Of a DNA stretch of 64,000 bases, positions 1-53,548 are shown piece by piece. The position numbers and the translations under genes were made by a program. The DNA comes from Bugulina stolonifera (taxonomy: Eukaryota; Bryozoa; Gymnolaemata; Cheilostomatida; Bugulidae): contig OW285192.1 in NCBI GenBank assembly GCA_935421135.1, positions 4,879,501-4,943,500 on the forward strand. The letters run 5' to 3'. A model generated the notes under the pieces. The model was not told where the DNA came from. It did no database searches and was given only the letters and a program-made list of their open reading frames with translations. The first letter of the stretch is position 1, and the number at the start of each line of letters is the position of its first letter.

Positions 1-242
1 CATTTATTTACTATTTCCTCCCTCAATTTTAAATTTTCAAATCTCATCTGAACAGAAAAATCCTGTGGCACCATCTATAGCACATGTAACTACTACATGT
101 ATAAGCCTAAGAAAAATGTTAACTAAACGTTCATGTTTAACAGATTGTACACAATATACAATACTGTAAATGCACACCTTGTATGTATTCATACAGGTAA
201 GGTATACAGTAGATGCTTACATTAAAGTTTTGTATTACATAG

Positions 243-349
243 GAGAGATAGGAGACTGGAAGAACCATCTAACAGTAGCTGAGAACGAGATGTTTGATGA
301 GTTCCTAGAGAGATGGCCTCTGAGTAGAGAAATACCTTTTAAATACTGA
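243..349 (+). CDS. Sulfotransferase, C-terminal exon (partial; 5' part outside window)
   Basis: Terminal exon after a TAG acceptor at 241-242, read in phase 1 to TGA at 347-349. The peptide contains GEIGDWKNHLTVAENEMFDE, which matches the conserved C-terminal signature of PAPS-dependent cytosolic sulfotransferases (K-x-G-x-x-GDWKN-x-F-T-x-x-x-N-E-x-FD, helping to bind the PAPS 3'-phosphate). Only about 35 residues are inside the window, so substrate class cannot be given. The final residues PFKY and the stop are normal for the family's short tail. A polyadenylation signal follows at 512-517. A second, reverse-strand copy of the same exon lies at 45273-45580. The family assignment is firm. Whether the upstream gene is intact cannot be seen. 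Confidence 0.75.
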
Positions 350-6133: not shown

Positions 6134-6218
6134 ATGCTAAGTTTTATTATCACGTTTACACAGATGCCATTAATTATATGGGCTCAAGGAATAGGTACAT
6201 ATAATATTTCACATATCG
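6134..6218 (+). CDS. Receptor exon 1: start codon and signal peptide
   Basis: ATG at 6134 in the context GCCATGC opens MLSFIITFTQMPLIIWAQG, a hydrophobic leader suited to co-translational export. The exon ends in phase 1 at a strong GTAAGT donor (6219), and its last G plus AC of the exon at 7751 makes Asp and continues without a stop. This phase fit, and the leader preceding extracellular domains, decided the start. No upstream exon is needed. Confidence 0.75.
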
Positions 6219-9200
6219 GTAAGTAAAATTTTTAATTTCTGCCAATAGATGAAGGTGTGATTTCTTGAAATCTGTGCATATCACCAGATCCACAAGTCCG
6301 ACATTGATCAGTATTATCATTATTCTATTTGGGTTCTATGGTAGGCACAGGGACCATACATACAATATGTATATGTAATAAAAGCAATAACTGACCAACT
6401 ACTTGAAGAAACATTTGATTAGCATTTAACAAGCAAATTACATCCTCTTAATATAAAATATATAATATTACTTTTAAAAGCTATACAGGTGAAATTTTTT
6501 CCATTATATTAGAATAATCTGCTATGAATGTATTTTCATTACATGCACGCTTACAAATTGAAATCGTGTTCAAACCTCAGCAAGCCTGTCACCTTAATAA
6601 ATGTTTGCGCTTGTTTGGATCAGGGCATATAAATAGTACAGGACGTCCTGTGTAGTGTCTTCATTAAAAAACACGCACGTTAGACACCCACATCTGCCCG
6701 GTTTTTGTAATGAGAAGCCAGAGTCTGTTAGAGTATGTGACTTCATTGGCGTGGCAGGATGATGCACTCCTATATTGTGGAAGGTGAGCTCTTTCACTCA
6801 GAGCCCAGCTCCTGCCTCCCACACAAGTTTTGTGCACCTGAGGTCAGTTAAATAGGATGGCCAAGTGGCTTGACAGCAACTAGTGACAGCAACATGGTGT
6901 TGGTGACCGAGTAGTCTAGCGTTGGTCACTCTGGTCTTGCAGCAATGACGCAAGTTATCTGCAAGGACGTGGATTCAAGTCCCGCCAATGAGCTGGAGGC
7001 TTTCATCCCGAAGGTTTTCCCTCTGTGCCCTATTAATAGATAACATATAATAATAATTATACATACATGTATTATATAATAATAGCTATATAATAATAAT
7101 AGATAATACAATGTAGTATCCAGTTCTAGGACCTGTGGTAGCCCCTTGACTAGCTCTGCTATTGGGCAGTCACTTGTACTTGGCGCCACGGATATTATTT
7201 ATTAAATAGAAAAACCAAATGAATTTAAATAGCGGATTAACAACAGACGTGTCCCAATTTTGCAACTGCACTCAGGTAAAATCACTGGAGTGTGATTGTT
7301 TATTGATTAGTTTTTGGTGTTTGGGGCTAGTGGATAATCAGTGGTCAATGTGACCGACATGATTTGGACATTATGAAATAACCCGATGAGGGTTAATTGT
7401 TTTGATATGAACACAATTTTTAATGTGCATTAAATGTTATTTTGAACTGTTAATGTAGGTAAATAACCCAAGAATAATGACTAGTCCTAGATACTCTTTG
7501 TTTTTCAATAGCCATCTCAGCATCAGGAGAAAACTATTAGCCTGAAACACTGTTATACAATTCAGAGGCTCTGAAGCCGAACCCTAGGTGTGCCGCTAAT
7601 TTTGCACCGTTTTATTTGTAACCCCTGCTAACGGCTGTTGAAGACAGATTCTAGAAGTTATCTTCAGATTATTTATTACTAAGTGTTAATTTTGTCTGCA
7701 TTCATGCATTAGATGAATATCAGTAGACAAACTGCATTTCTATTTTGTAGACAACATAGTACCCTACATCAATGACTTCTTATGGGAGAAAACATATCAC
7801 AGCAGTACTGGTGCCACTGTCGTCTCATCTTATACAATGTAAGTTATGAACTGAATAGAGATATGTAATACATGTACATGATATTGATAAAGGGACAAAA
7901 CTGTAGTGGGTTCACTGCACCTACGGCTTCAAGGTAAGGCGCCCTATTAAAGTTTATTGTCTCATGTGTAAACATGGGCCCATTTGCTCTCAATTCGAAT
8001 GTTTTGCATTTGCATACAATGTACTTGCATGTACATAATCATATCCATGTACATGTATTAGTATTTAGATGCTATTAATAACTAGGTGTATATTTGATGT
8101 ATTTTTTAGCAAGGAATACATCATATATAAAAAATGGCCAAATCCCCTAACATCATATACATGTAGGTGTATATTGTAGCATGATAGTGTAACAGAAGAC
8201 CATTTTCAAGCCTGTAACTTTCTAATGAACATATATATAAATATGCTATAAACTTTTTGCTGGTTTCTGCTCCGGCAAAAATTGAGACATTTACCGCAGT
8301 ATAAGTTGTATTTATTGGTATGTCATATTTTGAAATACATGTATTTTGGGTAGCAACAAACATGCTATGGTTTGCTATATCGGTAATAAAAATGTTTGGC
8401 TAGGTGCTTGATTTTGATCAGAAATGCATAATTCTAATTCAAAGAATTGGATATAGCTTGCCTCAACTTGCATTCACAATTCGTCATAGTGTTTATTAGA
8501 GGAGTGCAGGGAATATGCAGCTATAGGATCTATAGGCTTGAGTCTTGTGAACAGTTTGCATATTGCACAAAAGATCAGCAAGTCTTAAAGGAGTACATGA
8601 CTTGGTTGAACACTGCTCAATGCTGATTAGGATAGTTAAAACAGTTATACAGAGCGAATTTTTTGAACATCAATTTGCCAAATTTTAGTGAAAATTCCTC
8701 GGAACTTTACGATTTGTCTCCCAATAGTCAGCAAGTTAACTATGCTCATTCAGCTGTTAACTGAGAGCTTTGGTGCCAATTGTTAAGTGGACATGTCCGC
8801 ATGCACTTGTGTGTCTGTGCATGTGGATGGAAGTGTGGGAGCAAGTGTGTGTGCGCAAGTCTTTGTTATGATAAATGTATGGGGCACTAGTCTCATCTAA
8901 TGAGCTGTTGTTATAAATCGTTAGAACAATGCATAGAATAGCTTGATGAATTAGCAGGATTGCAGGTGTCGCAATACTTTGAAATTACTGTTTCAATGCA
9001 CACAGGTCTGAAGATGAAAAAAAGACAGTCTCCAGAAAAGCAATTGATGGATATAAGTTCACCGCTTCAGCGCTAAACGGCCAGTCAATCTGGTTCCCCT
9101 ATGAGGCTGCCAGCTACTATAACCAACCCTGGTTTAGATTAAAACTATTTGAATTGGTACACGTCCACTCAGTGTCGGTGCTTACAGGTAGAATTTATTA

Positions 9201-12200
9201 GAAGATAGTATATATTTTACTGCATGTACGTATATTTTTACTGCAAGACAAGATACATAGTATTGCATAGTAGGGTACTGACATCAATGAGAATGCTCGG
9301 GCACACACAAAACTTGCGGCTATCACGATAGAAGCCTTACTGCAGTTCTCCCATTAACAAACAAATGAGTGAATGTCCTCAGTGACTTGCCTTAGTTGTC
9401 AAAGAGTCGTGTAGTATAACAGCTTCTTATAACACCCACTAAGAGGAGTGAAAAATTACAAACCTATTTTTGACTTACATTGTACATGTAGCATTATTAA
9501 GCATGTTACAGGATGTACAATGTATATAGATGAAAGTTATGTTAAATAATTGGCAGATACTAGTGTGTGTTGGTGATTTAATAATAAATACGTGTAGTAG
9601 TACAAGACACCATTGTGAAACTTTATAACTCATTCCTAATATTTTTTACATTAATCCTAGTGCTATCATGATGATGACACTAGGAACAGTATTGCAATAC
9701 ATGTACATGTATTACGACTAAATCATAAAACCTCAAAAATGTGTCTTGTACTACTATTTATTTTTGAATAATACATGAATTGCCTGTTAGCACTATAATA
9801 AAATTGATGTTTTATGCATATAATGACAGATACGTGTAACGGCTTGAGATTATAGCATTTAGATAACTGTATTGTTGAACTAGATTTTAAAAGTATTGTA
9901 TTGTACTGTGGTGTTCCAGACCCACTCATGCATGCAGACAGTCTACAATCATGTACATGTACATGTACATGTATTATACATGTATGTATATGGCTGCAAG
10001 ACAATAACCTGACTACTATCTTTGTCTACTATTACCTACATGTATTTCATATGTCTAAGTAACTAAGCTTGCCCGAGCTGTCCATTGTTGTTTACATCAG
10101 CTAATCATGTAAGACTTTACTATGCTAGCATTTTCTATGTCTTTTAGCCTATTGCGAATATGGCTGACGTGCCAGAATATGCTGGTTTTTACATATAATA
10201 CATGTATGTGTTGCGTGATTATAAGCTTCTTTTGTATTGGCCGAAGCTTATTACATGTAGGTCGAACCTCGGCCTTTTTGCTGCTATTTTGTGGCATAAA
10301 TTCCGGGGCCGATATCATATCGTCCCTCCCGATACTGTATCGAACTTTTTACCGGAATTGTCACCGGAAACTGATTTAGTATATAAGTAAGCTCATTTTG
10401 CTATATGATTCAGTTGTCGATTAGGTTCTAGTAAAGTCACATCTCTCAATTCATCTCTACAGAGTCTTCTCTCTGAGCGGGGTAGTTCCAGCCTTAGTCC
10501 CTTTGGACCATTAGCCCAAACTTATCCTCGAGCACGATAGAACATACTCTTTTACGCACTCTTTCGTGAACACTAGAATCAGGCGGATGCCCTCGATATG
10601 TGCATAAACAGTTATATACTTTTCACTCTTTATGTAACGCCGGAAGCATAGCTTGATCGACCACTCTCACGTGCTTCCACTACTTGTGCCATAGGCACCC
10701 TTGTGTATCTTAGTAGAAAACATTACAGTATTTCAGTCTGACCAGGTTTTCTAAACATTTTCTGCAAAATTATTTTCTTAACATTGTCTGCTAACTGCTT
10801 CATCAAGAATTTAGTTACCATTGATGATGGAAGTGACCTGAAACTGCAGCACCTGGTGATTTTTCTCTTAATAGAATGCTTTGGTCAAAGCTTGAGTTCA
10901 CGCCATAAATGAGTGAAGAATTTGTATCGCATTGAAACTAAACGTACACAAATTGCGACTCAAATATAGCCTTGGGGATATGCTCCAAGGCCGCAATAAT
11001 TTACCAAGCTGGATCAAAACACAGTTCATTAGGTTTGTTGCATGAAATAAGCTAATTCTGCTTTATCTGCTCCGACTCAGTCATAAAACAAATAGTCATG
11101 CACTTCAATGACAATTTCCAAATATTAGTTTCTTCTCATATTGGCTGACTAATGGCTACACAGTGTGACACAGTATCACATCTATCCAAGGAAATTCAAA
11201 GACGTGTGAGAATCGACAGAAATTGCTGTCTACATCTGGTAAATACTCTAACTCAATTAGCACAACTCGATTCAAGGATCCTTAAACGGTCGCATGGATC
11301 ATTGTACACATGTATGATCAGTTTTTGTCATATTTTACAGGTGGAAATGCATGTGCAAAAGATATACCAGATGATTTTTCAATATATATCACTACTAATG
11401 ATATAGCCAGGTACAGGACACCAAATGAGGCAAAACAGCACCTTCAATATATTGGAGACAGTTCATCATTCTGTGGTGAGTGTTTAAAATTTTCAAGTGT
11501 GAGCAGAACATAATTGTGTATCATGTCTGACGTGACTTTCCAATGCTCACATTTAAAATCTACAATGTAGCTTACTTAACATTCTAGGTAGTGAATTATA
11601 TCTAATATTTCCAGCTGGCATACAAGTTTTATCATAATTTTTCTGAAAAATGAATTAATAATTATAACAACCAGTGATTGATGACTTTGTGGGGACTATA
11701 GAGCTACTGCTAGTGTCATGAAGGGTTGACCCAACATGCCAGAACTCTAGTGTAACTACTGAGAGAGCATTGATAGATTTTGGCTAAACAGTCTCGACAG
11801 TCCAACCAATCATTTGGGATAAGCTATTACTGAACAAGGACAGAATAAGGGTGCTGCATAAGTTAGTAGTCAACTTTCTAGTCCTTAACTACTACCAAGC
11901 TTAAAGGGGTTATGACATGTGGTTTATGTCTATATTCAATGCAGCACCTCTTATTTGGGTTTGTTGCATTTGTGCTACTATAAGCGGAGTTGTGTCCTCT
12001 TGCCCATGCTTGACTCATTAGCACTATTCAATGCTGCTTCAAACGCAACTTTGTTATGAAGACGCAACTGCGTGCTTTATGTCTTATAGAGAAAATTGTT
12101 GAATTCAAGCTGTTTGCATAGAAAGAGTACAGTAGTAAACAAATGATTTCACAGTGTTTACTAATATAGCTGTAGAATAACTTGTGCAAGTTTTTGAATT

Positions 12201-15200
12201 TTTCTGGGCTTTCCTTTTGCTGGCAATAACTAGCTGCCTTTATTGGTAGGTCCGGTATTTCATCTGGCCACACTACATACCTCGGCTATTATTGCGTTCT
12301 TCTATATGCCTATACATTGTGTTGTGGCCTAGTTGTTCTAAATATAGCCTGAAAGGCACAAACAATAGAATAGCTACAGTACTAGAATAACAAAATATCA
12401 AGGCACTCAATATATTGTGCCACTAAATACATATGTAGCTGAGTGCGTCTTAATGCTACCGTAAAACACATGGCATAGCCCCTTTAATAAACAAGTAAAC
12501 TAAGAACACATTCTCTACCGATATACTAAGTCGAGGGTGCTGATAAGTCAAACAAATACTGAAATTCTTTGCACGATACAGAGCAAATAGAAGAAAAAAT
12601 AAGTTGAACCAAAAGCCCCAATGTGAGTAGAATCTACTTACATTGTGCTTCTCGTTCAATTGATATACACATATATGAATTGATTTATATTAGCATTAAT
12701 TTACATTTGACCAACTAAGGAACATCGCCAGCTAGTTTACAATTAATTGTAAACGAGCTCTCCATGTCTCTTAATTGGTCAAATTTAAATTAATGCTAAT
12801 ATTCAAGTACAAGTCCAACATGCCTTAAAATTAGTGCTAAAAGTTTGCATCCAAAACAAAAACAGTTATGTAGTAATGCAAACAGCATGAGGGTATAAAG
12901 TAATCTACAAATTATAATCATGACATAACTTATAGTAATTACAAGACGAAATAATTTTGTATACAATAGTGTATAACAAAAGTAGGCAAACTAATAAACA
13001 TATTCTACTTGTCTCATATTATTTGATTAGAGTAATATATAATATTATTCATAAATATACTCCACACCTTTCACTAGCAATTTGTCATTTAAAGGGGTTA
13101 TGCAATATTTGTTTTAAGATAGCGTGAGGGCAACTGTCATATTTTTTACAATATTATTGCGAGGATTTTGCATACGTAATGTTAGCTGGTTAAGTGCGGG
13201 AAAGAGAACATAATATACATGTGCTAGCAGAACTACAACAAAACTGAAGTGGGAGACTGCGTTGAACACGTGATAAGCCTTTCAAATGCATGTCTAACAT
13301 ATTAGTTTGTTTACTAACATCTGCTATAGATGACACCACATAGCCTATATAATAAAACGTTAAGTCTATCTTAGTATGTCTACACTGTAGGTATGGTGAA
13401 TTTCATACACACTGGCAGAAGACCACACGGAGATCAATGTGATGGAAGAATCAATGAGTTTATCACTAATACATGTTACCAATCACGTAGCAGCGTCGCG
13501 ATATCTAATCCGAGCACTCCAAAAGCTTTTAACTACATTGGTATGTTAAACAAATTCACATTCTTGCTGATGAGTATTAATATCTAGCCCTTGCAAATGT
13601 ATTATATTGTTACACTTAACAGAATTATAATACTTATATTGATGGTCATAAACACAGATTGTACTGATTGTACTTGAATCAATACCAAAACAAAGATACA
13701 AATACAAGTAGAGCCACGCCAAAATAATATACATTGCATGTACAACAGGCACAAAAAGAGTAGGCAGAAATATACAGAGAAAAAAATGGTTTCAATATGC
13801 TATCTAGCTACAGATACAATGTAAAACAAGAATCTATTTTAATGTTACCAGTGTTATGCTATTAGAAGAGACAGCACAATGACTAATGTGTAGTATTGTA
13901 CATTCACTTTGTAGAGCTTTTTATGCTGAAAATACTGTCCCTTGCATTAAATGAACTCTAGAATATATTGTTCCCTCATTTTTGTAGATTACAAGCGAAA
14001 GGCGGCTGAAGGAAGACGTTTGACTATAAACTGTAGGCAAAGGATGTGGCAAATAGACATTATGTTAGCTTACTGGTCATTGGTTGGTTTAACTACATGC
14101 ACATACTCTACATGTACATGTTTAGATATTATGTTAGCCCATATTTCATCGATAGTATAAGTTTCATGAAGTAAAAATGTTGTGTTAGCAAGCTGGCCAT
14201 TGATTAGTTGAGCTGATGGCTCTGATAACATGGTACACAGTACATGTAGATTCACCATGCCTCTAATTCGACATAGGCGACGTAAAATGCTGAGTAGATG
14301 TAAAAGCCACACAAATTATAAAATCTGTGCCTATAATAGGTGTCTTTGAAAACTGTACGAGTTCATATCATCTGAAAACAGCTTGATCGTTCAGGCGTAA
14401 CTAATGCTTGCTCTGAAGGGGAACCCCCTTGTTAGCAATAAATATTATTACCAGACAGGCCTAACTTTGCGTTATAGCTAGCGCTGTATTATTGAATAAA
14501 ATAAGGTGTTATTGCCGCAGATTGCTATTTATAAGCTTGCACGTGCAATATCCGAATACTTTAAATACGCTAAATAAACATCTTTCATCAAAAGTTACAT
14601 GTTGTGCAAGTACATGTATTTCCATCAACGGCCTTAGAAAGGTCAAAAGTCAATATTTGATGTGGTGTGCCAAGCAGAAAGATGAAATTAATGATGCTGC
14701 AGAATCTGGTACAGTGCGACATTGTTGTTCATTGATTGGCTTAGTTGCATAATGCTACACGTTGTACAGGTTATTATTTGTATGTAATATAAGTTTTCGT
14801 ATTCCTGTAGGACAATGGTTGTACTTCCAATATGACAGAAAAGGCAAAGTCAGTGTTCCAATACTTCACAGCATATACTGTGCAAGCAAACATCAAGTAT
14901 GGCTACTTGGCGGATGAGAAATGTGGTACGAAACAGGACATAAGTGGAGCCACTTTCTATATTTACTTTCGGTGTATAAAAAGAGGTAAGAACTTTACTG
15001 CAGTATATTTCTCTGTGACTTTCAATGTGTTACACGCACATGTCTGTGTGCTGCTGATTCTGGCCATTCTTGAGCAAGCTAGATATTCTTAAGTGAATAA
15101 AAATTAATATTTTGATGTATTGACTAGCTTAACATGCTAGATTAACATTATACATGTGTCATGGTTGTAAAAGCAGAGGCTTGCACTACACTCAAGCACT

Positions 15201-36200: not shown

Positions 36201-39200
36201 AGAAAAAATGCAGATCTCTTTAGATCCTTGGTTTCTTACCTGGGATTAGTAGTGGGAAGTAAAATTGGTGAGAATTCTACCTAAGATCTGAAGTCAGGAT
36301 CACAACTTTTTATTCTGATTTGGCGAAGAGGAAGGCAGAATGTAGCAAAGGAACATTATAAGGTTGAATGCTCTTAGTAACACTATCAATGACCTTTATA
36401 GGAATCATACCTAAATCTCCCAGTGCTCTAACTGACTGGATCCTCCCTAAGATAGCATTTGATGTTTGAGCATATCAAATTCCCATCGGATAATTGTAAA
36501 ATATTACTAAGTTTTTGTGTGATCTTGTTACAAATGCGCGATTAGCCCAAAATAGAGGTGATGGATTGCGTGTGAACGCAGGTGTACCTTGAAACTATGA
36601 CATAATTAGTTGGAAAATTAGAAGACTTTTGATTTAGTAATCTATATACAAAGTATACTCATAGAAACTCTCGAAAATTCTTGAGAAGATGGTTGGTCGT
36701 TTGAACTCACATGAAAATGCTCAACTCAGAGGTCTGTGCTTCAATTTTTGCATCATACAGCAATAGACTGTGGTGACCCGGGAGCAGGCAAGGAAGTCTT
36801 TAGAAGGTCAGGTCAAGTGTTTACATACGGTTCTGTAGTGACTTATTTATGTCCATATGGCTACCATGACAGTCAGACATTTTCATCAACAGTTACCATC
36901 ACATGCACTGCTAATGGAACCTGGAATAAGGAGACTGTCACTTGTCAACGTATGTTAGCTGCGTTATAATAGTAATTGCATTAGGTACATATTAAGTTAT
37001 GCTTGACATTATTGGAGTCGAGCAAGATGGCTATTAATAATTAGGTCGATGCATGACTAATAGCAAATAATGTCATGAAGGAAACTAAAATTGCATCTAA
37101 TAAAAATAGTCTGATAGTTGAAGCCGGAGTTCGAAATAGAAGCACTACATATACATCTACATTTGACATTTGCTTGTTTTAAAAAAAATTTGTAACTGAT
37201 TTTCTGTTTAAACAGCTATTACTTGTGAAGAGCCAGGTCTGGGAGTAAACACTGTAAGAAACCATACTACAGATTACAGTTTTAGATCAATCGTAAGTTT
37301 GAACAAATTGAGTTGAAAGGATTATTTCTTCTAGTATCACAATTAAATTGCGATACTAGAAGAAATAATAGCAAATTACAACAACGGGTTATCCGCTGTA
37401 GATTAGACCTTGCTAGACAGGTGCATATACATGTGTAGTTTGAGTTGGTGCACATTATTCAATATTTATATATTTCTACTCCTAATGTCATGTTACCGGG
37501 CAACTGCGAGGTCAAGGTCACAATGTCATGTTGTTAATTATTTTTACTTGTCTTCAGTTCAAGTTCACGTTGTATCACAAGCTACATGGAGATGTTTACA
37601 TGTCGCTAAGTCTAGTGTTCATATTGCATTACTAAGTAAATGTTTACATGTTGCTAGGTAGACTTCACATGTCTTCCAAGATTTGGATTGGACTCAAACC
37701 TAAATCTGACTAGACATGTTATTCAATGTGGTGAAGATGGATTTTGGAATGGAAGTATCAACCCAGTGTGCACACAGATACCTATATATGTAAGTATGCA
37801 TGTCTTTCTAGCATATATATAGTGTTCACAAAGATAATAAATGTAAACGCACATACATGACTTGTACATCATTAACTTTCAATGTTTACCCGTGATTGTA
37901 AGGATTTATTTGTCTCTCACCCAGACTGAAGTTTGTGCAGCGCTACAGGTCAAATGCAATTACCTGCCTCAGTGTCATGTGAAATATGCACTAGTTCTGT
38001 TCACTAGATAAAGTAGAGCTAAGATGACGAAATATATGTATGAATGAAATTTTCTATAGATACACGAGCCATCCTTTCTTATAATATTAGAATATTATGC
38101 TGAGTTATGTCCAAGTCCTTTTACTACATGTGATCAATGGTAGTTAATGTTTTATTTAGAGGTCTGTGTGCTTTGTTCATGTTGACTCTTCCATTCAAAA
38201 ATAACCTAGTCTAAATGGTGTGAGCCATTTTATCAAGTTGCACATGATGCTTAGTGGTCTAACATTATGATGTTTATTCACTGGAACTATGCAAGTATGC
38301 CTATGGTATAAACCGTATGTGCAAATGATATCAATACCGATGGTTCGTACTACATGTACTTGTGCACTAAACATTGCACCACAGAGGCTAATAATAATAA
38401 TAATAATAATAATATCCGTGGTGCCAGACACAACTATTTAACGTGGCTGCACAATAGCAGAGCTAGTCGAGGGGCCACCACGGCTTCTTGAGCTAGATAT
38501 TATTATAGTTCGATACGGCACAGAGGGAAAACCTTCTTCGGGGCGAAAACCTCCAGGTCATTGGCGGGACTCGAACCCCCGTCCTTGCAGATAACTTGCG
38601 TCATTGTTGCAAGACCAGAGTGGCTTGTGCTAGACCACTCGGCCACCAATACCTACATAAGGACATAAGGACATGAGGACATGGGACATGACAATGTTTA
38701 GTATTTAGAGAGCTGGTATTTCAAATCAAGAAGAGTGTACATGTATGCTAACTGCACCATTTAAATTTTTTGTCAAGTCAAAGATGCAAGTAAGTTGTCA
38801 GGCACATACACATTTATGGTACAAATAGTATGGTTGTTGGAACTATCTGTTTAGTACAAGAATGGTTGTTCTGCATAACTCTTATCAACATGTTTTAATT
38901 AAAAATCTATCAAACTATAACTATTCTCTGAACAAATAATGCACATGTACATGTATATACATGTACATTGTATACAACAATGCCAAACAAATAAATACAC
39001 ACATTTTTCTACAATTACATGTAGTTATTATAAAATACTTTACCTAGTATGACTTGAGTATATCTGCTGGCATGATTGGAATGGTGCAGCTGGAATTTGT
39101 GAAAGGAATAGCATTTGATCAATTGGAAGTGGAGCATACAGCACACTTTACAGGTAAATGTGAAATGTAGTCATAATAATACATTGTATATTATTATTAT

Positions 39201-42200
39201 TAGACATTCTCTCGTAGTTGTCCTCCCCTGACTGATTGTCATCTGAAAGATACGCACATATCCAACTCTTGTCCAGCATTAAAAAACAATCATGATTGAC
39301 CCTTTCACCCTTTGTCTAAAATAGTGTTACTGCTACTGTCACTGCTATTACTACTGCTTCTACTGCTTCTATTGCTTCTATACTGCTACTACAGGTTTAG
39401 TAAGTTAAATTTTGGTAATGGAAAATATGATTACGCTACAGAATCTGAATCTCTGTCAAATTTACTTTCTGTATAACATTTTAAATAAAAATTTAGGTGT
39501 GAATGAACTTTACAATGAGCAGTATGAGACCAATGTTACGTTTACCACCATCAAGTCTGGAAACTATCTGAAGGAGATAGAACTGAGGGCGGGGTTCAAC
39601 TACACCCTTACTGTAGGTTCAAAGTTTGATACATTGTCTACGCATCAACTATATACACTGTATACAAAGCATTGTGCATAATCCTACACTGACCATAGGA
39701 AGGTACAAGTCATGTCAGTGAAAGCTTGAATTTTTATATGCACCACACATTGGAGGTGAAATGGTTACTGAATGCTCTGCTAGATGCTAATACCCAAATC
39801 TAGAGTATAATACTCACATTAAAAATGTCTACAGATTTTACTACCATTATAAAGTTGATGTCGGTACGCTTTCTGAGTGCAACAGTAAATATTACCTACA
39901 GTGTATTTCCTCTTCCATTATAACTATCGTCAGACTATTTTACAGTTCAAAGCAAAGCTAACAGAGGATGGCACCGATACAGTCCAAGAGAGAGAACACA
40001 ACTTCTTCTTGTCAACAGGAAAACCTTCTTTTCACAAGAAAATTGCTCCCGTGCACCTTAGACCAGATGTTTATTCATATGCCAATGATTCCAGGTTAGA
40101 TAACGAGATACATAATAATGTTACTTACCCAATTATAACACATTTACTCAAGTTCCTTAAAATTTTCTGTGCTAGACAACAGATAATTGATGGAAATGAA
40201 GATGGTTTGTTCAACAATGACAAGATATGTCTCTCAACACACCTAGTTTCCCTGCCAGGGTGCTTTGGAGTTAACCTCCACGCTCTTCTTCCGTCAAATT
40301 TTGGAAAACCTTTAGAACAGCGCACAGTGTTATCTGAACTATGCACTTATTGTATGTGAGTATGTCAAATGGAGTTGGAGTAAGGAGATGTCTCTGCATT
40401 GAAGCACAACGTAGCATAACTCGTTGTCTAATCGGAGATCTGTATGTTGGTGGGAGAAAGACAGTTTTTGGCTGAAGTAAACCATCTTTCCTTTCATTAC
40501 CTTTGTAGTAGAAGGTCATTGTAAAATAACTTCACGATTGGAGAGTTCTAAACCATAACGCAAGATTTCTACACAGTGTAGTGAATACATGTAGTACACA
40601 TCTGCATGCAATAGTTTTCACCAATTCCATGCAGAATGTCTAAATGCCCGATTATTATAACATTTCAGAAAGCTCCGTGTAACATTGGGGGAATACTTTG
40701 ATAGTAGAAATGGTACTATAAGGAGTTATACTCTCATAGTCTGTGAAGTCATCCCTTGGATTAGCTACTCTCTCTACGATAGAAGACTACAATATACTCT
40801 GCCAACCTACTCTCAAGTAAATTTTGTAAATTCATTGGCTGAAATAGTAATGATTTATCTCCCATATTCGATAATACATATAATCTTCAAATTTTCAGTA
40901 TTAGCTATCTAAATTATTTATATGGTAAAAATTAGTCACCATGTTTGTTTGGTTCTCTGCATTTTATTTAGATTCCAAAATCAAACAAAGTTACAGTTTG
41001 GCCCTGCTATCAGGTGTTTGAAAGATGTGACATATACAACAGAAGCAATGACTGTGGATTTATGAAAACTCAAACAGGCTACATTGGACATGTATTGCAG
41101 AAGAAAATGTCTTTCATTGTTGGGAATGGGTTAGCTAATGCATTACGTAATATTACTAATAAGCTAAATATGAATTTGATTGCATAGCACATACATTGTA
41201 AGGACATTTTCAAGTCAGGTAGGCTACTTTATACATGGATTTATAAATTGCATTGTATAGTTGGAACAATTACATATTAACATACTCATGTAGATGTAGA
41301 CATACAATCATGTGAAATCTGATATGCTCTAATTTCTATTATTTAAAGTGGTCTAGTCACAGTGACGTTTTGAACAAACTGAATATACTGATACTGTATA
41401 TCATCTGACTAAACGCAAAGCTAAGTTTAATGAGAGCAGCACACATGCACTGAGTTGTTATACATGTACATTCTAATGTAAAACTTGCTTGCCAGGGAAT
41501 GTGGAGAAGACACTGGTTTCTGTAATGGACCTCTTAAGCCAGGTACGACGTTCTGTGTGAAGTTACGAGCCTACACCGAGGATGACTATAATGACACTCC
41601 TTGTTCTAAGCCTTCACTTTCAGGTAAGAATTACTCAATTTTGATTAAAAATAACTGTAATGAGTAGCCTGGCAAGGTTCCTGGTTCTGCAAAGCTTTTC
41701 TGTTACAGCTGCAGCAAGAGAATGGCGAAGTGACTTAACTGTTCCATTAATCCTCTCAATATCACCGTTTTTGATTACACTAGCTGTTGGAGTAGCACTT
41801 CTGTTCTACAGACGAAGGTATCCAAGGGCTGCGCAGATGAGCGAAAAGGAGTCTCTCTTTGATGTATCAAGAACTAGTAATTATAGTGTAGGTTAAACTT
41901 CCATTTATTACAGTCGATACTTATTGTACTGGTTCAAATGAAGCTAAGCTGAAAGCAATTTGAGGTGTGACTATTGCTTGTTCTAAGGAACAGCCCCGCA
42001 CATCTTAGAAGAGCGTGACAGCACACAGTGTAATACTGAACAAAATTAATTTTTATGGTCGCATATTGCTATTTAGCATGCACATACAATACCTGAATAT
42101 ACCTACATGTATAGTGCTAGTTTACAAGCTACATAGATCAACAGCTACTGACAGAGAATACTGTAGATACCCAGTCGATTGTATTAATATTATGCAGATT

Positions 42201-44300
42201 AAAAAGATTGTATTTAGGCATCTATGAAAGCCAATGAATGTTTTAGACAAGGAAAGGAGGGCATAATGTGGGCTGGAGAGGAAGAGCGGGCGTGGTTAAC
42301 CAGTTCTGGCTAAAAGAGTTCAATAAGAGACGAATGTCCGATGCTGCCACAAGTGATGCAGGTATCTCTAAAATTTGTAAGATTGTATTCAGCAGGTTTA
42401 ACTCAAAAATATCTATGAGGTGGCAATGCTCATCCTCGGTAAAATTATTTTTCTTAATACCGTGTGTGTTTTTAAAAATATTTTATCACTACTTATTGTA
42501 CATTGCACAATGTGTTAACAGATGCAGTCTTGGGAGTGTTTGATTTTAAAGAAGAATTCTTACCTAGAGAAGAGAACGAATTGGAAGAGTTTCAGCTCAA
42601 CTCACAAGGTATGATGCCGACCATCAAAATAAATTGGCTCATTTTCTATTTCATCAACTGTGAAAGTTCTACGTTTAAATCACAACTGCAGAAGGTTTTA
42701 GTTTTTAGGATACTATCTATTATAGTATAAAATATCTTCTCCTGTCATATAGTAGCAGAGGAACATAGCTCTGAGGATGAACATGTCAAGGAGCTCCAAG
42801 CTTCAATAATGGGACTAGAGAGCGAGAGCTCTGAAAAGACAAAGCATTTAAAACACATTGGAGGGGTGCCAGTAGGAAATCTGGAAGAAAAGGTGTTAGT
42901 CAAAATTAAGAGTCTATCACAAGGTTTGTGTGCAATACTCCCAATATTGCACTACCTATCAACCCATTGAGTGAGTTTTTTCATTTAATTTATAAGAAAT
43001 TTAAGCAACATCCATGTAAGTTCATTAACAGATAGTATAATAGAGCGTTGAAATGCATACATATGCTTCTTAAGTAGCAGTGCTAGTGGATTAAAAGTTA
43101 CGTTTTGTTTTCAATTATATAGTAAGTGAGGACATAACAGAGAAGAAGGAATTTCTCAGAGATCCAAATGTTTCATCTGAGCCAAATCATAATCTTGAGC
43201 AGCTACCAGGGCAAACAGACCAGCTACTAAAACCCATTGGAAAATGGCCAATACATAAATTGTTTGCCATTAGACACTGGTTAAGGTCAGCAGTTTCAAA
43301 AGATGATTCAGTGGCAATGGATACAGATGTTGGCATGGAGCCAAAATTAAATATACCTCAAAATTTAAACGCTGCCACAAAACTCGATCACATCCAAAAT
43401 AAACCAAGCATAGAAATCAGTGAAATCCAACTATCCCAATACTCTGTACCCAATGTTACAACATACCAAGAAAAGTTACAGATACCTTCAAACAGAAGCG
43501 GAACTAAAGCTACAGCATCAAGGAACTCAACTGAACAGAGGGCATCTAAATTTCCAGATAAAACAAAATATGGGGAGCATCAAGTAATTAGCTTAACAAA
43601 TAAAGATGGCTCTTTACGGCCGAAAAGCACAACTGGAAGGAAAATTAAAGACAACTCCACACAAAAGAAGCTATCTACAAAAAAAAATGCTCTCAAACAA
43701 AGTGACAAAATTGCCACAGCTAAACATCAATCTGAAGCAAAGCATACTGTTTTATCAAAAGTAAAAGCTTCTTCTGGAAAAGTATCTAGCAATAAAAGAC
43801 TTCTCGTTAAGGATGAAAATAGAAGTTCCATCACTAAAGCAGAAAAGATAAATTCGAATGGAACACAGTCTAAACAGTCATCCCATTCTCAGCCATCTAG
43901 TAAAAAAGTGGCAACTAACTCAGCCAGTCATGAAAGTTCAACCGATCCACAAAAATTGAATTTAATATCTCAAGGACAAATTTCAAACTTCAAGCCTCAA
44001 GATCTCTCCATACAACCACATAATTCTGATCCTAGGGAAGTGAACAGTCACCCTGGTTCACTAACATCAAATACAAATGCAGTCAAAGCCAGAAAGGAAA
44101 CCTTAGTCTCTCAAGAACAGAGCATTCACGAGTCAGAGTCTGGTGAAAAGGATTCTCATAATGCTGAAACTGATGGAAAAAGAGAGGAACATAAGTCATT
44201 GGCCATGGCAGAAGACCAAAACCTTTTACCACAAACTGCTGATGAGTCAGCAGAACATTTTGTAGCAGATAATGAGGGTGCTGGCAGCTCACCAAAGTAG
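6134..44300 (+). CDS. Giant multidomain type I membrane receptor (discoidin-pentraxin-TSP1-CTLD-CCP-FN3-TM), about 46 exons, about 2,581 aa
   Basis: Inferred exons: 6134-6218, 7751-7838, 9006-9187, 11341-11475, 13391-13540, 13988-14036(?), 14638-14713(?), 14811-14985, 15599-15851, 16159-16310, 16511-16711, 18995-19168, 20244-20464, 21335-21464, 21973-22077, 22386-22556, 23040-23144, 23923-24123, 24708-24760, 25027-25186, 26595-26759, 27898-28011, 29350-29493, 30038-30243, 30364-30475, 30638-30745, 30970-31146, 31758-31904, 33220-33381, 34578-34781, 35283-35495, 35788-35982, 36761-36949, 37216-37292, 37658-37789, 39048-39153, 39497-39612, 39946-40094, 40669-40816, 40972-41129, 41496-41623, 41709-41887, 42247-42361, 42522-42608, 42753-42923, 43123-44300. 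Every junction keeps frame and the total divides by three. The product has a signal peptide, an ectodomain of about 2,000 residues, one TM helix (about 2015-2039) and a tail of about 540 residues. No known gene is recognised. The likely role is as a cell-surface lectin or adhesion receptor (inference). Least certain are the exons at 13988-14713 and 21973-22556. Confidence 0.82.
6898..7203 (+). repeat. tRNA-derived SINE, copy 1
   Basis: A box A-like GACCGAGTAGTCTAGC and a box B-like GATTCAAGTCCC are set in a sequence shared with 38390-38652 (-) and 48130-48366 (+). An ATA-rich interior, a TGACTAGCTCTGCTATTG block and a GGCGCCACGGATATTATT end follow. Pol III promoter boxes mark it as a SINE derived from a Leu/Ser-type tRNA. 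It lies in intron 1 of the receptor. Confidence 0.7.
7751..13540 (+). CDS. Receptor exons 2-5: first discoidin/fucolectin-like (F5/8 C type) domain
   Basis: Exons 7751-7838, 9006-9187, 11341-11475 and 13391-13540 encode about residues 29-213. The second of these holds AIDGYKFTASALNG and PWFRLKLFELVHVHSVSVLT. This resembles the fucolectin/F5/8 type C pattern in which an A-x-D-G loop is followed by an NPWW-x-V-x-L strand and a V-x-x-V strand. The later exons carry four spaced cysteines (GNACAKD, SFCGM, DQCDG, NTCYQ). This fold commonly binds glycans or lipids (family knowledge). The match is by eye and distant, so the domain name is tentative. The exons themselves, with clean GT-AG borders and unbroken phase, are well supported. 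Confidence 0.6.
10200..10730 (+). mobile_element. Diverged solo LTR, family A, copy 2
   Basis: It shares with 3398-4044 the order GTCGAACCTCGG, CCGATAC-type repeats, TCACCGGAA, TATATAAG, a TTCAGTTG/GATTAGG stretch, AGAGTCTTCTCTC and the end AAAACATTACA. It lies in an intron of the receptor in the same orientation as the gene. The 5' boundary is unclear. Confidence 0.6.
11901..12487 (+). mobile_element. 587-bp TTAA-flanked MITE, family 2
   Basis: TTAA at 11901-11904 and 12484-12487 bracket inverted ends AGGGGTTATGACATGTG and the complement of AGGGGCTATGCCATGTG. No ORF. Related diverged copies lie at 629-1187 (reverse) and 23236-23808. It is intronic in the receptor gene. Confidence 0.7.
12688..12802. 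repeat. Short palindromic MITE-like hairpin
   Basis: Arms of about 33 bases (ATATTAGCATTAATTTACAT at the left, complement at the right) enclose a smaller palindrome around AGTTTACAATTAATTGTAAAC. The whole can fold into one hairpin. It is intronic. Confidence 0.6.
13988..14985 (+). CDS. Receptor exons 6-7: cysteine-rich linker, partly uncertain
   Basis: The exon at 14811-14985 is clear: acceptor CTGTAG, donor GTAAGA, open in phase 0, with CTSN, EKCGTK and FRCIK cysteines. The piece joining it to exon 5 is less sure. Starting at 13988 the frame is open and reaches LTINC, a typical CCP strand, but no good GT donor follows. A GC donor (GCAAAG, 14037) with a small exon 14638-14713 restores phase. 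Other solutions exist, such as a GTTGGT donor further on. A transcript is needed to settle it. Confidence 0.45.
15599..16711 (+). CDS. Receptor exons: pentraxin/laminin-G-like domain
   Basis: Three exons (15599-15851, 16159-16310, 16511-16711) encode about residues 314-515. Features follow the pentraxin/LamG-3 jelly-roll order: MTTWTLCLWIKVFTLSF (W and C on the second strand), LYFQIG, WHQLCLAHKER (the usual W-H-x-x-C motif), AYWDGKQLSE (the Y-x-DGK turn), then GSAVHLLGSEFDGSIAGVSI ending in WE, equivalent to LG-x-E-x-D-x-x-x-F-x-G-x-(L/I)-x-x-(V/I)-x-(I/L)-W. Such domains bind ligand at a calcium-dependent face (family knowledge). All metal-binding residues could not be placed by eye. The exon set is phase-symmetric (1 in, 1 out), as expected for a shuffled module. 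Confidence 0.72.
16964..17170. repeat. Long inverted repeat with tRNA-like loop
   Basis: Two arms of about 77 bases (16964-17040 and 17094-17170) are nearly perfect reverse complements, from TATATTGTATTTTTAGC outward to ATGAAAATACCAGT inward. The loop of about 53 bases contains GCTAGGCGATTAGGTGCC and a box B-like GGTTTCAAATCCC. The same loop start recurs at about 60211-60237. It is intronic. Confidence 0.7.
17345..17550. repeat. Imperfect tandem repeat, unit about 27 bp
   Basis: About seven units of the type TATGACCTGTGACCTATGTTC plus CTACATA follow one another with substitutions (CCAGTGACATA, CTGTAACTTATA) and one shortened unit. Intronic, with no coding meaning seen. Confidence 0.7.
18995..21464 (+). 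CDS. Receptor exons: second discoidin-like domain
   Basis: Exons 18995-19168, 20244-20464 and 21335-21464, about residues 516-690. The middle exon has AGSHVLLIRQHKTHGSMINM followed by RIAEIEVS. This fits the last strands of F5/8 C or fucolectin folds (G-R-Y-V-x-L or similar, then L-x-(L/I)-x-E-(V/I)-x-V). The donor after 20464 is GTTGAG, a weaker GT donor, but it is the one that keeps phase 0 with the next exon, which begins CKETLAMRM and ends YSNCI. The domain call is tentative; the coding call is good. Confidence 0.6.
19210..19510. repeat. TACATGTA-rich low-complexity block
   Basis: Dense alternation of ACATGTA, TGCATGTA and GTACATG strings. ORFs on both strands here are artefacts of this composition (Met/Tyr/His/Cys-rich). 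It lies in the intron after 19168. Confidence 0.7.
21500..21533. repeat. ACATGT hexamer microsatellite
   Basis: Five to six uninterrupted GTACAT units in the intron after 21464. Confidence 0.8.
21973..23144 (+). CDS. Receptor exons: Cys-rich (CCP-like) segment and first TSP1-like repeat
   Basis: Exons 21973-22077 and 22386-22556 give a cysteine-rich segment with VELTCHFQLADGGYVRCDD, like the middle of a CCP domain; their shared borders are provisional. The exon at 23040-23144 has IPSWTDWNLNPTTDISRRTC, matching the thrombospondin type 1 pattern W-x-x-W followed by an R-R-x-C strand, but it is short (about 35 residues) and lacks the usual CSVTCG-like core. Two donors are possible at its end (23145 GTTGGT or 23149 GTAAAA); the first keeps the following lectin exon open from its acceptor. 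Confidence 0.55.
23236..23808 (+). mobile_element. Degraded MITE, family 2 copy
   Basis: Aligns with 11901-12487 over most of its length (TGTGGTTTATGTCTATG, GCATAGAAAGAGTACAGTAG, GGCACTCAATATATTGTGCC) but has lost recognisable TTAA ends. It lies in the intron between the first TSP1-like exon and CTLD1. Confidence 0.6.
23923..25186 (+). CDS. Receptor exons: first C-type lectin-like domain (CTLD1)
   Basis: Exons 23923-24123, 24708-24760 and 25027-25186 (the last could start at 25000, adding nine residues). They encode CSCYTWGSKNTEMNFAAAEF, then SCSTNGGGHPVSLESVEEAS, then SPIWTSG, and end in EKYGVICEK. This is the CTLD order: C-Y-x-(F/W), A-x-x-x-C, G-x-(L/V)-x-S-(I/L)-x-S-x-E-E, W-(T/I)-x-G, and the final G-V-x-C-E. 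EPN or QPD calcium-site motifs and the WND motif are not evident, so calcium-dependent sugar binding is doubtful and protein or other ligands are possible. Confidence 0.8.
24174..24287. repeat. Intronic inverted repeat
   Basis: Arms of about 42-47 bases (24174-24215 and 24241-24287), sharing GTCTGTCGATGGCACAGTC and GTTCAACTA with their complements, are separated by a short loop. It is 50 bases after the CTLD1 first exon. Confidence 0.65.
25345..25520 (+). repeat. Dispersed repeat, copy 1 of 3
   Basis: Shares with 26262-26440 and 31450-31590 the sequence order GTAATTGRTTAATA, AACTCCAATTG/CACG, GGCTTTGGTTATTGGCT, and a GGGC(C/T)GGTAC-type end. All are intronic and in the same orientation. No ORF or family is recognised. 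Confidence 0.5.
25608..25894 (-). mobile_element. Shortened solo LTR, family A, copy 3 (reverse)
   Basis: Begins TGTAATGTTTTTGAG and ends CTTTGCACAAAATGTGCTTACA, the reverse complements of the family A end and start. It is about half the length of the 3398-4044 copy and has lost the middle. It lies in the intron between CTLD1 and the second TSP1 exon. Confidence 0.6.
26262..26440 (+). repeat. Dispersed repeat, copy 2 of 3
   Basis: GTAATTGGTTAATAGTAC through GGCTTTGGTTCTTGGCTGG to GGGCCGGTAC aligns with 25345-25520. Intronic. Confidence 0.5.
26595..26759 (+). CDS. Receptor exon: second TSP1-like repeat
   Basis: This single phase 1-1 exon encodes LSWADWVVTPCDGRSDRKQK, followed by RRRC, and then C-N-x-x-x-C spacing (AICNAKTCQ). 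The W-x-x-W and basic R-x-R-R-x-C strand is the TSP1 core, with W/R stacking and a typical C-mannosylation motif (family knowledge). It directly follows CTLD1, as the third TSP1 exon (31758) follows CTLD2. Confidence 0.72.
27050..27300. repeat. TACATGTA-rich low-complexity block
   Basis: Repeated TACATGTA, ACATGTACAT and GTACATG strings. The two ORFs at this place are composition artefacts. Intronic. Confidence 0.65.
27898..30243 (+). CDS. Receptor exons: CCP (sushi) domains 1 and 2
   Basis: The first CCP is split by a phase-1 intron: 27898-28011 (LPCCTYKTLPDTI) and 29350-29493 (FKCEEGFKHTDG, ARCLVNPLNGKGSW, LICSD). The second occupies one exon, 30038-30243: VIRCSMPVLSP, AMCIPGYAVGQG, RLRCTSNSTWAPEP, LPDCQP. 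Both show the CCP order of four cysteines with a G-(Y/F) after the second and a W before the fourth. The second ends in phase 0, joining the second lectin domain without a linker. Confidence 0.78.
29007..29215. repeat. TAAGTGTG octamer minisatellite
   Basis: About 25 units of an 8-bp repeat (TAAGTGTG), with a few variants such as TAAGAGTG, TAGGTGTG and TACGTGTG. Intronic, between the two exons of the first CCP domain. The reverse-strand ORF over it (HTYTLTHL repeats) is an artefact. Confidence 0.85.
30364..31146 (+). CDS. Receptor exons: second C-type lectin-like domain (CTLD2)
   Basis: Exons 30364-30475, 30638-30745 and 30970-31146, about residues 1166-1297. They read GRCFAHFLIPESVEDANSQC, GSSLVSILNAEEN, LWTSG, FTDWHGGISRAPSGSCLYI, GWQTASCEDKKHYLCYV. 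All landmark positions of a CTLD are present, including the F-x-x-W before the disulfide loop, the W-x-x-x-x-C and the terminal L-C-Y. It is more canonical than CTLD1. No clear EPN/QPD triplet is seen, so sugar specificity is unpredictable. It shares split positions with CTLD1, which suggests internal duplication. Confidence 0.85.
31450..31590 (+). repeat. Dispersed repeat, copy 3 of 3
   Basis: TTAGTTAATATTAG, CCCCAATTATA, AGCTTTGGTGATTGGCTA and GGACTAGTACC follow the same order as copies at 25345 and 26262, more diverged. Intronic. Confidence 0.4.
31758..31904 (+). CDS. Receptor exon: third TSP1 repeat
   Basis: This phase 1-1 exon encodes GNWSLWSEWSACDVNKRRQR followed by TRQC, the classic W-x-x-W-x-x-W-x-x-C core with an R-x-R-x-R-x-C strand, and later CAPDC and GVCCDDPG. 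The three tryptophans make it the best TSP1 in the protein. The last cysteine pair runs into the next exon to begin the following CCP (CDDPG then FGFN). Confidence 0.85.
33220..37789 (+). CDS. Receptor exons: six consecutive CCP (sushi) domains
   Basis: Exons 33220-33381, 34578-34781, 35283-35495, 35788-35982, 36761-36949, and the pair 37216-37292/37658-37789 each give one CCP. Starts read SCDEPKPG, ECNDPGSGEN, ICEQPP, IDCGDPGAGKEV and ITCEEPGLGVN. Each has (T/S)-x-x-C-x-x-G-Y-like second cysteines, a C-x-x-x-G-x-W strand, and closes in P-x-C. All but the last pair are single phase 1-1 exons, the usual arrangement for CCP modules. In the last pair a phase-0 intron splits the domain. Such strings form an extended stalk and often bind proteins or glycans (family knowledge). 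Confidence 0.88.
33640..34110 (-). pseudogene. Decayed LINE reverse-transcriptase C-terminal remnant
   Basis: Read on the minus strand, pieces such as AVIYGSQVGPITRGQEDKIS followed by AKEMRMLQYI and WVDHVTDN, then AISAGDVEGE and PRWHSIMDALQN, resemble the end of non-LTR ORF2 proteins (an E-x-R-M-L-R strand, a G-x-x-x-W-x-D linker, and a terminal R-W-x-x-x-x segment). Stops and frame changes interrupt it, so it is dead. It lies in a receptor intron in the opposite orientation. Confidence 0.55.
34145..34212. repeat. Pyrimidine-rich tandem repeat, about 22-bp units
   Basis: Three units of TTCTCTCTATCCTCTTTGC type, in the intron preceding the exon at 34578. Confidence 0.6.
36042..36245 (+). repeat. 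Second type of tRNA-derived SINE
   Basis: CGTGGCCTAGTGGCAAGG (box A-like) and GGTTCAATTCCC (box B-like) occur about 40 bases apart, followed by a body with GGAAGAGCATCCAGCC, reminiscent of the conserved cores of animal SINEs. It differs from the SINE at 6898. Intronic. Confidence 0.55.
37321..37371. repeat. Perfect short hairpin
   Basis: TTATTTCTTCTAGTATC and its complement are separated by about a dozen bases. It lies 28 bases after the exon ending at 37292. It could be a hairpin RNA or a tiny palindromic element; nothing else supports a gene. Confidence 0.55.
38390..38652 (-). repeat. tRNA-derived SINE, copy 2 (reverse)
   Basis: On the minus strand it reads GGTGGCCGAGTGGTCTAGC (box A), GGGTTCGAGTCCCGCC (box B), then the shared body and an ATT-trinucleotide tail next to 38391-38412. 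It is the best-preserved promoter of the three copies. Intronic. Confidence 0.75.
39048..41623 (+). CDS. Receptor exons: membrane-proximal FN3-like stalk (RPTP-like)
   Basis: Exons 39048-39153, 39497-39612, 39946-40094, 40669-40816, 40972-41129 and 41496-41623 encode about 270 residues before the membrane. The last exon reads CNGPLKPGTTFCVKLRAYTE, the closing strand of an FN3 domain in the form seen next to the membrane in receptor tyrosine phosphatases (Y-x-N-G-x-L-x-P-x-T-x-Y-x-x-x-x-R-A). Earlier strands fit FN3 loosely (IRSYTLIVCEV, YTLTFKAKL). Two FN3-like units are likely. The donor at 41130 is GTTAGC, weak but required for phase. Confidence 0.68.
41709..41887 (+). CDS. Receptor exon: transmembrane helix and stop-transfer
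   Basis: The exon encodes LTVPLILSISPFLITLAVGV followed by ALLFY and then RRRYPR. This is a single hydrophobic span of about 25 residues with a basic stop-transfer on the cytoplasmic side, so topology is type I given the N-terminal signal peptide. The donor GTAGGT at 41888 is in phase 0. Failure to splice there gives a stop two codons later, so intron retention would make a receptor with a short tail of about 25 residues. Confidence 0.8.
42247..44300 (+). CDS. Receptor exons: long cytoplasmic tail without known domain
   Basis: Exons 42247-42361, 42522-42608, 42753-42923 and the terminal 43123-44300 encode about 515 residues. The first part is mixed (WRGRAGVVNQFWLKEFNKRR) and the next acidic (EEFLPREENELEEF). 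The terminal 391 residues are rich in Ser, Lys, Gln, Asn and Thr and look disordered. No phosphatase, kinase, death, TIR or PDZ-binding signature was seen, and the tyrosines present do not fit ITIM/ITAM spacing. It could be a serine/threonine-phosphorylated scaffold (inference). The stop is TAG at 44298-44300. Confidence 0.75.
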
Positions 44301-51420: not shown

Positions 51421-51610
51421 TATTATGATATTATGATATTATGATATTATGATATTATGATATTATGATATTATGATATTATGATATTATGATGTTATGA
51501 TATTATGATATTATGATATTATGATATTATGATATTATGATATTATGATATTATGATATTATGATATTATGATATTATGATATTATGATATTATGATATT
51601 ATGATATTAT
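51421..51610. repeat. ATTATGAT octamer satellite
   Basis: About 23 head-to-tail copies of ATTATGAT, almost perfect, with one variant (GATGTTATGAT near 51491). It is flanked by TACATGTA strings. It probably varies in length between individuals. Confidence 0.9.
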
Positions 51611-53534: not shown

Positions 53535-53548
53535 TAGCCCCCTCACAC
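53535..53548 (-). promoter_or_regulatory. Polypurine tract
   Basis: Minus-strand GTGAGGGGGCTA lies directly against the 3' LTR, where plus-strand DNA priming occurs in LTR elements. Confidence 0.75.

Follow-up and report, generated by a model that had tools for sequence, protein, structure and literature searches.

Introduction

In eukaryotes, F-type lectin domains often occur together with CTLD, pentraxin, CCP, FA58C and membrane-spanning parts, and the portion of a review of these lectins that deals with such proteins gives Drosophila furrowed, CG9095, sea urchin SpCRL and the Xenopus pentraxin fusion protein as examples (PMC5712786). The second CCP of Drosophila furrowed mediates homophilic adhesion according to a passage that itself cites others, and the same passage describes a furrowed relative, Tribolium CTL15, that binds and agglutinates bacteria (PMC9954269). 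We found no gene identified for bryozoan historecognition in the open-licence literature, and the relevant text of the Bugula neritina genome paper records similarities to the allorecognition gene Alr1 that are no more than weak (PMC7576161).

Here we follow up a prediction, made from DNA sequence, that a locus of the bryozoan Bugulina stolonifera encodes an undescribed giant chimeric receptor. The window, by which we mean the whole stretch of DNA analysed, comprises 64,000 nucleotides of chromosome 6 (C6:4879501-4943500), and searches were run against a genome of 234,951,659 bases in 27 contigs. On the evidence presented here the receptor locus is one real, single gene, as predicted from genomic data, and its product a giant mosaic receptor; both claims of the original prediction are upheld to that extent. 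The predicted gene belongs to a family that has expanded in B. stolonifera.

Results

Structure of the predicted gene

We used a self-written, two-strand gene finder, trained without annotation on the window and 200 kb of flanking sequence, with GC-rich stretches masked and with exons picked by eye in the window and long ORFs as training seeds. Window positions 5501-46000 were chained into one plus-strand gene ending at 44300 with a score of 400.7 (controls: 19.0 on the reverse strand, 0 for six of six second-order Markov sequences), which agrees with the long, phase-consistent, type I coding gene initially proposed. The start is less clear-cut. Left unconstrained, the gene finder begins the receptor gene at 6759, or at 2663 when run on 264 kb, and imposing the proposed start at 6134 by a bonus gave a net score of 392.7, 8 lower, and a raw model of 52 exons. 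The start at 6134 was nonetheless kept, since all three paralogues carry a match to exon 1 at 62% identity (E 2.9e-4, 4.2e-4 and 4.2e-4).

Hand curation of the raw model then took into account splice phase, the modules encoded and conservation in the paralogues. The resulting model joins 45 exons in frame over 7,566 coding bases, with each intron GT-AG, and encodes 2,521 residues; these figures are close to, but not the same as, the roughly 46 exons and 2,581 residues of the original prediction (Table 1). Identical exons in the raw, imposed-start model number 32 of 45, and 43 of 45 overlap it. Donors exceed the 90th percentile of all window GT dinucleotides at 31 of 44 introns, and acceptors that of all AG at 33 of 44; the other 13 donors and 11 acceptors do not. 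Phase-1 introns account for 32 of 44 in the curated model, a count biased by a curation that favoured phase-1 joins, and for 31 of 51 in the raw model; so many phase-1 joins would be consistent with module shuffling.

Nine raw exons were dropped in curation. One of them, 25751-25866, falls partly on a repeat that is present in dozens of copies; 40176-40355 and 21290-21415 had no paralogue match; and six others likewise had none, in a loose test whose query was crowded by the 25751-25866 repeat. In addition, a comparison with paralogue P1 led us to exchange the join at exon 22317-22556 for two exons, 21973-22106 and 22379-22556. An earlier 44-exon version, differing only at 22317-22556, was used for the segment Pfam runs, Ka/Ks, the paralogue splice-site rows and some PDB searches. 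When translated, the repeat at 25751-25866 spans about 40 residues; it recurs at dozens of places on many contigs and is probably a short interspersed repeat. By eye, short repeats of the TACATG type are also abundant in introns, at many places in the window.

The predicted layout is that of a signal peptide, an ectodomain carrying 25 N-glycosylation sequons, a single membrane span and a 531-residue tail. Hydropathy peaks at 2.46 in the membrane span and at 1.44 in the N-terminal signal, the next peak being 1.43.

Table 1. Coordinates of the receptor gene, its predicted modules and its paralogues (window positions unless C6 is given).
Feature	Position	Strand	Evidence
Whole receptor gene, start to stop codon	6134..44300	+	45 exons, 2,521 residues; gene finder and three collinear paralogues
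Exon 1, predicted signal peptide	6134..6218	+	62% identical exon in three paralogues; second-highest hydropathy peak
N-terminal module, exons 2-6, discoidin-like by eye (KAIDG...W...QPWFRLKLFE)	7751..14082	+	No profile support
Exon 7, Cys-containing module	14811..14985	+	80-91% identical in two paralogues
LamG/pentraxin-like module, exons 8-10	15599..16711	+	Laminin_G_3 and Pentaxin, marginal
Second module, exons 11-14, discoidin-like in the original prediction	18995-19168, 20244-20474, 21973-22106, 22379-22556	+	Least certain exon ends
Exon 15, WxxW, TSP1-like by eye only	23040..23144	+	89% identical in P1; no Pfam match
First CTLD, exons 16-18, derived	23923..25186	+	PDB Reg4 E 0.0027; exon 16 81-86% identical in paralogues
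Second TSP1-like stretch, exons 19-20, WxxW, 6 Cys, by eye only	26595..28011	+	No Pfam match
CCP pair, exons 21-23	28859..30243	+	Sushi E 9.6e-6, best stretch exon 23
Second CTLD, exons 24-26	30364..31146	+	Lectin_C E 3.6e-14
Third TSP1, exon 27	31758..31904	+	TSP_1; 86-94% identical in paralogues
Six CCP modules, exons 28-34	33220..37789	+	Sushi, 6 stretches at E<=1
FN3-like region, exons 35-40; last part matches PTP_tm	39048..41623	+	Marginal
Exon 41, predicted membrane span, residues 1966-1990	41715..41863	+	Highest hydropathy peak of protein
Exon 42, membrane-proximal cytoplasmic motif NVGWRGRAGV...FNKRRM	42247..42361	+	61-65% in P1 and P2
Ser/Lys/Glu-rich tail, exons 43-45	42528..44300	+	No Pfam family at E<=5
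Paralogue P1	C6 5090813-5142665	-	Protein searches of genome
Paralogue P2	C6 5149445-5244321	-	Protein searches of genome
Paralogue P3	C6 5472788-5505641	+	Protein searches of genome

Several other features were seen around the receptor gene. A sulfotransferase (Sulfotransfer_1, E 1.6e-39) occupies window positions 1-349 and continues upstream, and the raw model fuses it with neighbours that resemble, by eye, an ABC transporter and a cyclic-nucleotide-binding protein. On the opposite strand, an ab initio gene at 47006-52212 adjoins the receptor and carries a TSP1 domain (E 2.3e-5). Also on the minus strand, the GC-rich ORF at 53548-56964 (1,138 residues, no Pfam match at E<=1) looks by eye like a retroelement gag-type protein, and a Cys-rich protein that matches somatomedin-B weakly (E 0.0097) is predicted on the plus strand from 60914 to past the window end.

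Modules of the N-terminal half

Pfam was run both on segments alone and on residues 1-2057 as one protein. The latter run returned seven stretches for Sushi and one for Lectin_C, together with sub-cut-off matches to Laminin_G_3 (1.7e-4), PTP_tm (0.0017) and TSP_1 (0.0032).

Neither of the two modules originally labelled discoidin-like has a profile match in the window protein. No discoidin family matched the N-terminal segment at E<=5, or the refined second segment and residues 1-2057 at E<=1, and PDB searches with the discoidin-like regions, one of them made with the older exon join, gave no discoidin match. Single-sequence hhalign carries no weight on this point, for it also missed the second CTLD when that was aligned with a CTLD of established identity. 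An F5_F8_type_C_2 exon (E 7.8e-7) lies at C6:16845485 in a related locus, about 5 kb upstream of the TSP1 of that locus at C6:16850639, and window exon 3 aligns weakly with that exon (21% identity, E 0.089 in a comparison with this locus alone). This one support for a discoidin reading is indirect.

The module of exons 8-10, called pentraxin-like, is borderline by profile: Laminin_G_3 reaches E 6.8e-6 on the segment, with 26.7 bits against a cut-off of 27.6 and so 0.9 bit under it, and Pentaxin E 0.011. PDB profile searches with this region and with the second discoidin-like region gave no match. Exons 11-14 form the weakest stretch of the model because exon 13 depends on aligning with P1 at 31% (E 2.6e-5 when the two were compared locally) and was missed by the genome search; exons 12 and 14 are conserved in P1, and the donor at 20474 scores -0.8.

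CTLD, TSP1 and CCP modules

Profile support for the remaining ectodomain labels is uneven. The second CTLD is supported by Lectin_C, whereas the first has no Pfam match alone and is marginal; in the PDB search its best match was the Reg4 CTLD, and 17 of the 21 matches were to PET hydrolases (E 0.08-0.27), surely by chance. Among the TSP1 labels the third stands when searched alone (TSP_1 E 2.6e-5, above cut-off; 0.0032, below cut-off, in the long protein), whereas the first two lack a profile match. The six-CCP segment matches Sushi at E 2.5e-39 and 6e-39 in two runs, and of the upstream pair the second CCP is supported and the first is marginal, being counted at a lax threshold only. The proposed two-plus-six arrangement thus yields seven supported CCPs and a marginal eighth.

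Classical calcium-dependent C-type lectins have EPN/QPD-type and WND-type motifs, which hold calcium and sugar. Neither CTLD of the window protein has an EPN/QPD-type or W-x-D motif, and nor does the CTLD piece of the B. neritina homologue described below; as a control, the CTLD of a furrowed-like Schistocerca protein has both (QPN and WND). Because both CTLDs are without these motifs, lectin recognition is doubtful, and the domains probably lack classical calcium-dependent sugar binding.

Membrane-proximal region and cytoplasmic tail

Where FN3 had been proposed next to the membrane, the last part of the FN3-like region matches PTP_tm, the membrane-proximal domain of receptor tyrosine phosphatases. 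The match is marginal, below cut-off both alone (E 2.5e-5, 25.0 bits against 26.3) and in the long protein (E 0.0017), and that of the B. neritina homologue is likewise below cut-off. Beyond the predicted span, exon 42 agrees with the B. neritina homologue at 22 of 35 aligned positions, and its motif NVGWRGRAGV corresponds to no Pfam domain. A genome search with exons 42-43 matched only the window gene, P1 and P2; the P3 tail is still 31% identical. Neither Y_phosphatase nor any other enzyme domain was found in the tail (Pfam, E<=5). An NF-Y-like identity for the tail was considered and rejected, one PDB match (E 1.1) being taken as chance.

Paralogues and the wider family

Querying the genome with the receptor protein in four sections (N-terminal, middle, CCPs and C-terminal) located three paralogues, and together with the window gene they make four full-length genes of the same plan within 0.62 Mb. 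When all matches listed inside the three paralogue intervals are taken, 40 exon pieces in P1, 40 in P2 and 39 in P3 are collinear with the window gene in strict order, from signal peptide to tail. The six-CCP exons are matched in each paralogue with their order kept. Homologous AG or GT dinucleotides are retained in 35 of 43 paralogue site rows (seven of the 43, from locus L046, repeat L045); of the other eight, one lies at a locus edge and seven are alignments that overrun the exon or show a three-base offset, the offset being at the acceptor of window position 16155 in P1 (two rows). In P3 (C6:5498618-5499748) the first three CCP pieces lie in 400-residue open frames where the window gene has introns, likely through intron loss or retention.

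Nei-Gojobori estimates were made from the readable paralogue matches of 20 codons or more with E<1e-4, a few of which overrun exon ends slightly. Ka/Ks is below 1 in 25 of 25 rows (0.13-0.61; three rows duplicate another locus), with totals of 0.33 for P1 (461 codons), 0.25 for P2 (245) and 0.33 for P3 (738). The paralogue stretches read are under purifying selection.

All four full-length genes have collinear TSP1, CCPs and the last FN3-like exon, of CNGPLK type. Beyond them, this exon has at least 19 further places in the genome, mostly weak (weakest E 0.16). With TSP1 or CCP matches required on the same strand within 25 kb upstream of the exon, 13 of these 19 loci have both TSP1 and CCP matches and six CCP only, some of the CCP matches being as weak as E 0.3. 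Conversely, 10 of 23 TSP1 matches outside the four genes lie without an FN3-like exon. The further-locus counts may be lower bounds, because the genome searches score the best candidates only. No Y_phosphatase appeared on C6 or near family loci among those listed of 151 matches (150 of 200 candidates scored), and because no tyrosine phosphatase piece is listed on C6 the family would not simply be one of receptor phosphatases.

A homologue in Bugula neritina

The full-length receptor as query returned no homologue among 3491 candidates, and a 700-residue piece returned CCP-type matches only (9 of 3840 candidates). The search that succeeded drew its words from residues 1119-1960 only, and had 33 of 4,960 candidates at E<=0.01. 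The closest is B. neritina EB796_024830 (P0010; E 1.9e-193, 45% identity over 62% of the searched region); the remaining 32 appear, judged by their Pfam domains, to align via CCPs or TSP1s. Aligned in full, EB796_024830 meets the window protein within the second CTLD and follows it over TSP1, CCPs, PTP_tm-type domain, membrane span and NVGWRGRAG to a long Ser/Lys tail, with some exons skipped. This prediction begins inside the second CTLD and therefore supports only the second half as one gene.

Databases name EB796_024830 'hypothetical protein' or, automatically, 'SVEP1'. The latter name does not fit, because no VWA or EGF family matches the protein at E<=0.1. In the search for an orthologue already named with the same architecture this was the closest entry, and no earlier description of the module order was found in the open-licence literature. 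The term undescribed thus remains apt in that no named match was found, but the gene is not a singleton, given four full-length copies and at least 19 weaker loci.

Discussion

The collinear copies on chromosome 6 bear on whether the locus is one gene. Duplication of two or more neighbouring genes together as a block would by itself also yield the collinearity, and although the gene finder kept one gene up to a per-gene reward of +2 nats, at +4 nats, among the costs tried, it made its first split, at 24781/24808. Against a block of genes, no intron in the model is larger than 2.3 kb, the membrane span and N-terminal signal are the two top hydropathy peaks, P3 retains the order within 32.9 kb, and exons 23 and 24 are separated by no more than about 120 bases in the window gene, P1 and P2. 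We give such a block very little credence, and treat the locus as encoding a single receptor.

From its architecture alone, we consider it rather probable that the protein is a type I adhesion or recognition receptor of the Furrowed/selectin kind whose modules come in a new order. The large ectodomain, with its CCPs and two CTLDs, would project from the cell, and the CTLD and CCP arrays may engage neighbouring cells or the matrix through homotypic or heterotypic protein-protein contacts; such contacts are the most likely because both CTLDs are without the calcium- and sugar-holding motifs. The RPTP-type domain would adjoin the membrane, and a signal could pass via the cytoplasmic motif NVGWRGRAGV and the long tail, which might dock other proteins.

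Other functions can be drawn from the same modules. Immune receptors commonly carry CTLD, pentraxin and CCP modules, and an innate immune pattern receptor, whose lectin-like and pentraxin-like modules bind microbes while the tail signals, would accord with the family expansion and with the agglutination of bacteria that the cited text ascribes to Tribolium CTL15 (PMC9954269). We regard this as unlikely, given purifying selection between paralogues where read and the absence of both sugar-binding motifs from the two CTLDs and the B. neritina piece. The same selection, with Ka/Ks totals of 0.25-0.33 between copies, weighs against the idea that the four-copy cluster is a polymorphic self/non-self locus for colony allorecognition. 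Four transmembrane recognition-type genes do lie inside 0.62 Mb, passages of two articles report historecognition and the fusibility of colonies for bryozoans (PMC12018476, PMC3549757), and the second of these describes a CCP in the histocompatibility receptor fester of Botryllus; furrowed-like genes of solitary insects, however, have part of the same plan. An allorecognition receptor therefore seems to us very unlikely, and that the cluster forms the core of a bryozoan colony self/non-self system more doubtful still.

The PTP_tm matches in the window protein and its B. neritina homologue could also point to a receptor tyrosine phosphatase in which loss of the enzyme domain has left the membrane-proximal part behind. 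Both matches fall under the family cut-off and none of the Y_phosphatase matches listed lies on C6 or near family loci, which makes this descent highly improbable. An adhesion or recognition receptor of the Furrowed/selectin kind remains our preferred reading. The family supplies coordinates: four full-length mosaic receptors and at least 19 loci seen by exon matches only. Public data for B. stolonifera include poly(A) RNA-seq and an alternate haplotype, with accessions in PMC10213821, so expression and allelic diversity should be testable without new animals.

Set against known systems, the window protein stands nearest in sequence to B. neritina EB796_024830, with which it has the CTLD end, TSP1, CCPs, PTP_tm-type domain, span, motif and tail in common; the B. 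neritina prediction is without the N-terminal half and skips some exons. Furrowed/CTL-X proteins of insects, such as Schistocerca P0004, share a CTLD, supplied here by the second CTLD, a CCP array and one membrane span. P0004 runs CCP, F5/8C, CTLD and CCPs, with the F5/8C near the N-terminus; for this domain Pfam gave no match in the window protein and one in the related locus at C6:16845485. In contrast to this group, the window protein has two CTLDs, a LamG/pentraxin-like module, an RPTP-type membrane-proximal domain, a 531-residue tail and one supported plus two by-eye TSP1s. Its six CCPs precede the membrane span, and an FN3/PTP_tm-like region stands between them and the membrane. SVEP1/polydom likewise has pentraxin-type and many CCP modules, but the fuller SVEP1 records carry VWA and EGF domains (precomputed Pfam), both absent from residues 1-2057 of the window protein at E<=1, and the window protein has a membrane span. 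Receptor tyrosine phosphatases of the PTPRJ type have the membrane-proximal PTP_tm-type domain, matched here below cut-off, and a phosphatase domain in the tail, which the window protein lacks. Botryllus fester, likened here by its description in part of PMC3549757, is also a CCP-bearing cell-surface receptor of a colonial animal, but in fester a single exon codes for a CCP, and three membrane spans are predicted. Because the F-type lectin review, in its account of such proteins, records module combinations of this sort (PMC5712786), the kind of receptor is already known; new to us are the order of the modules, the presence of TSP1s and of an RPTP-type domain, and the expansion in a bryozoan.
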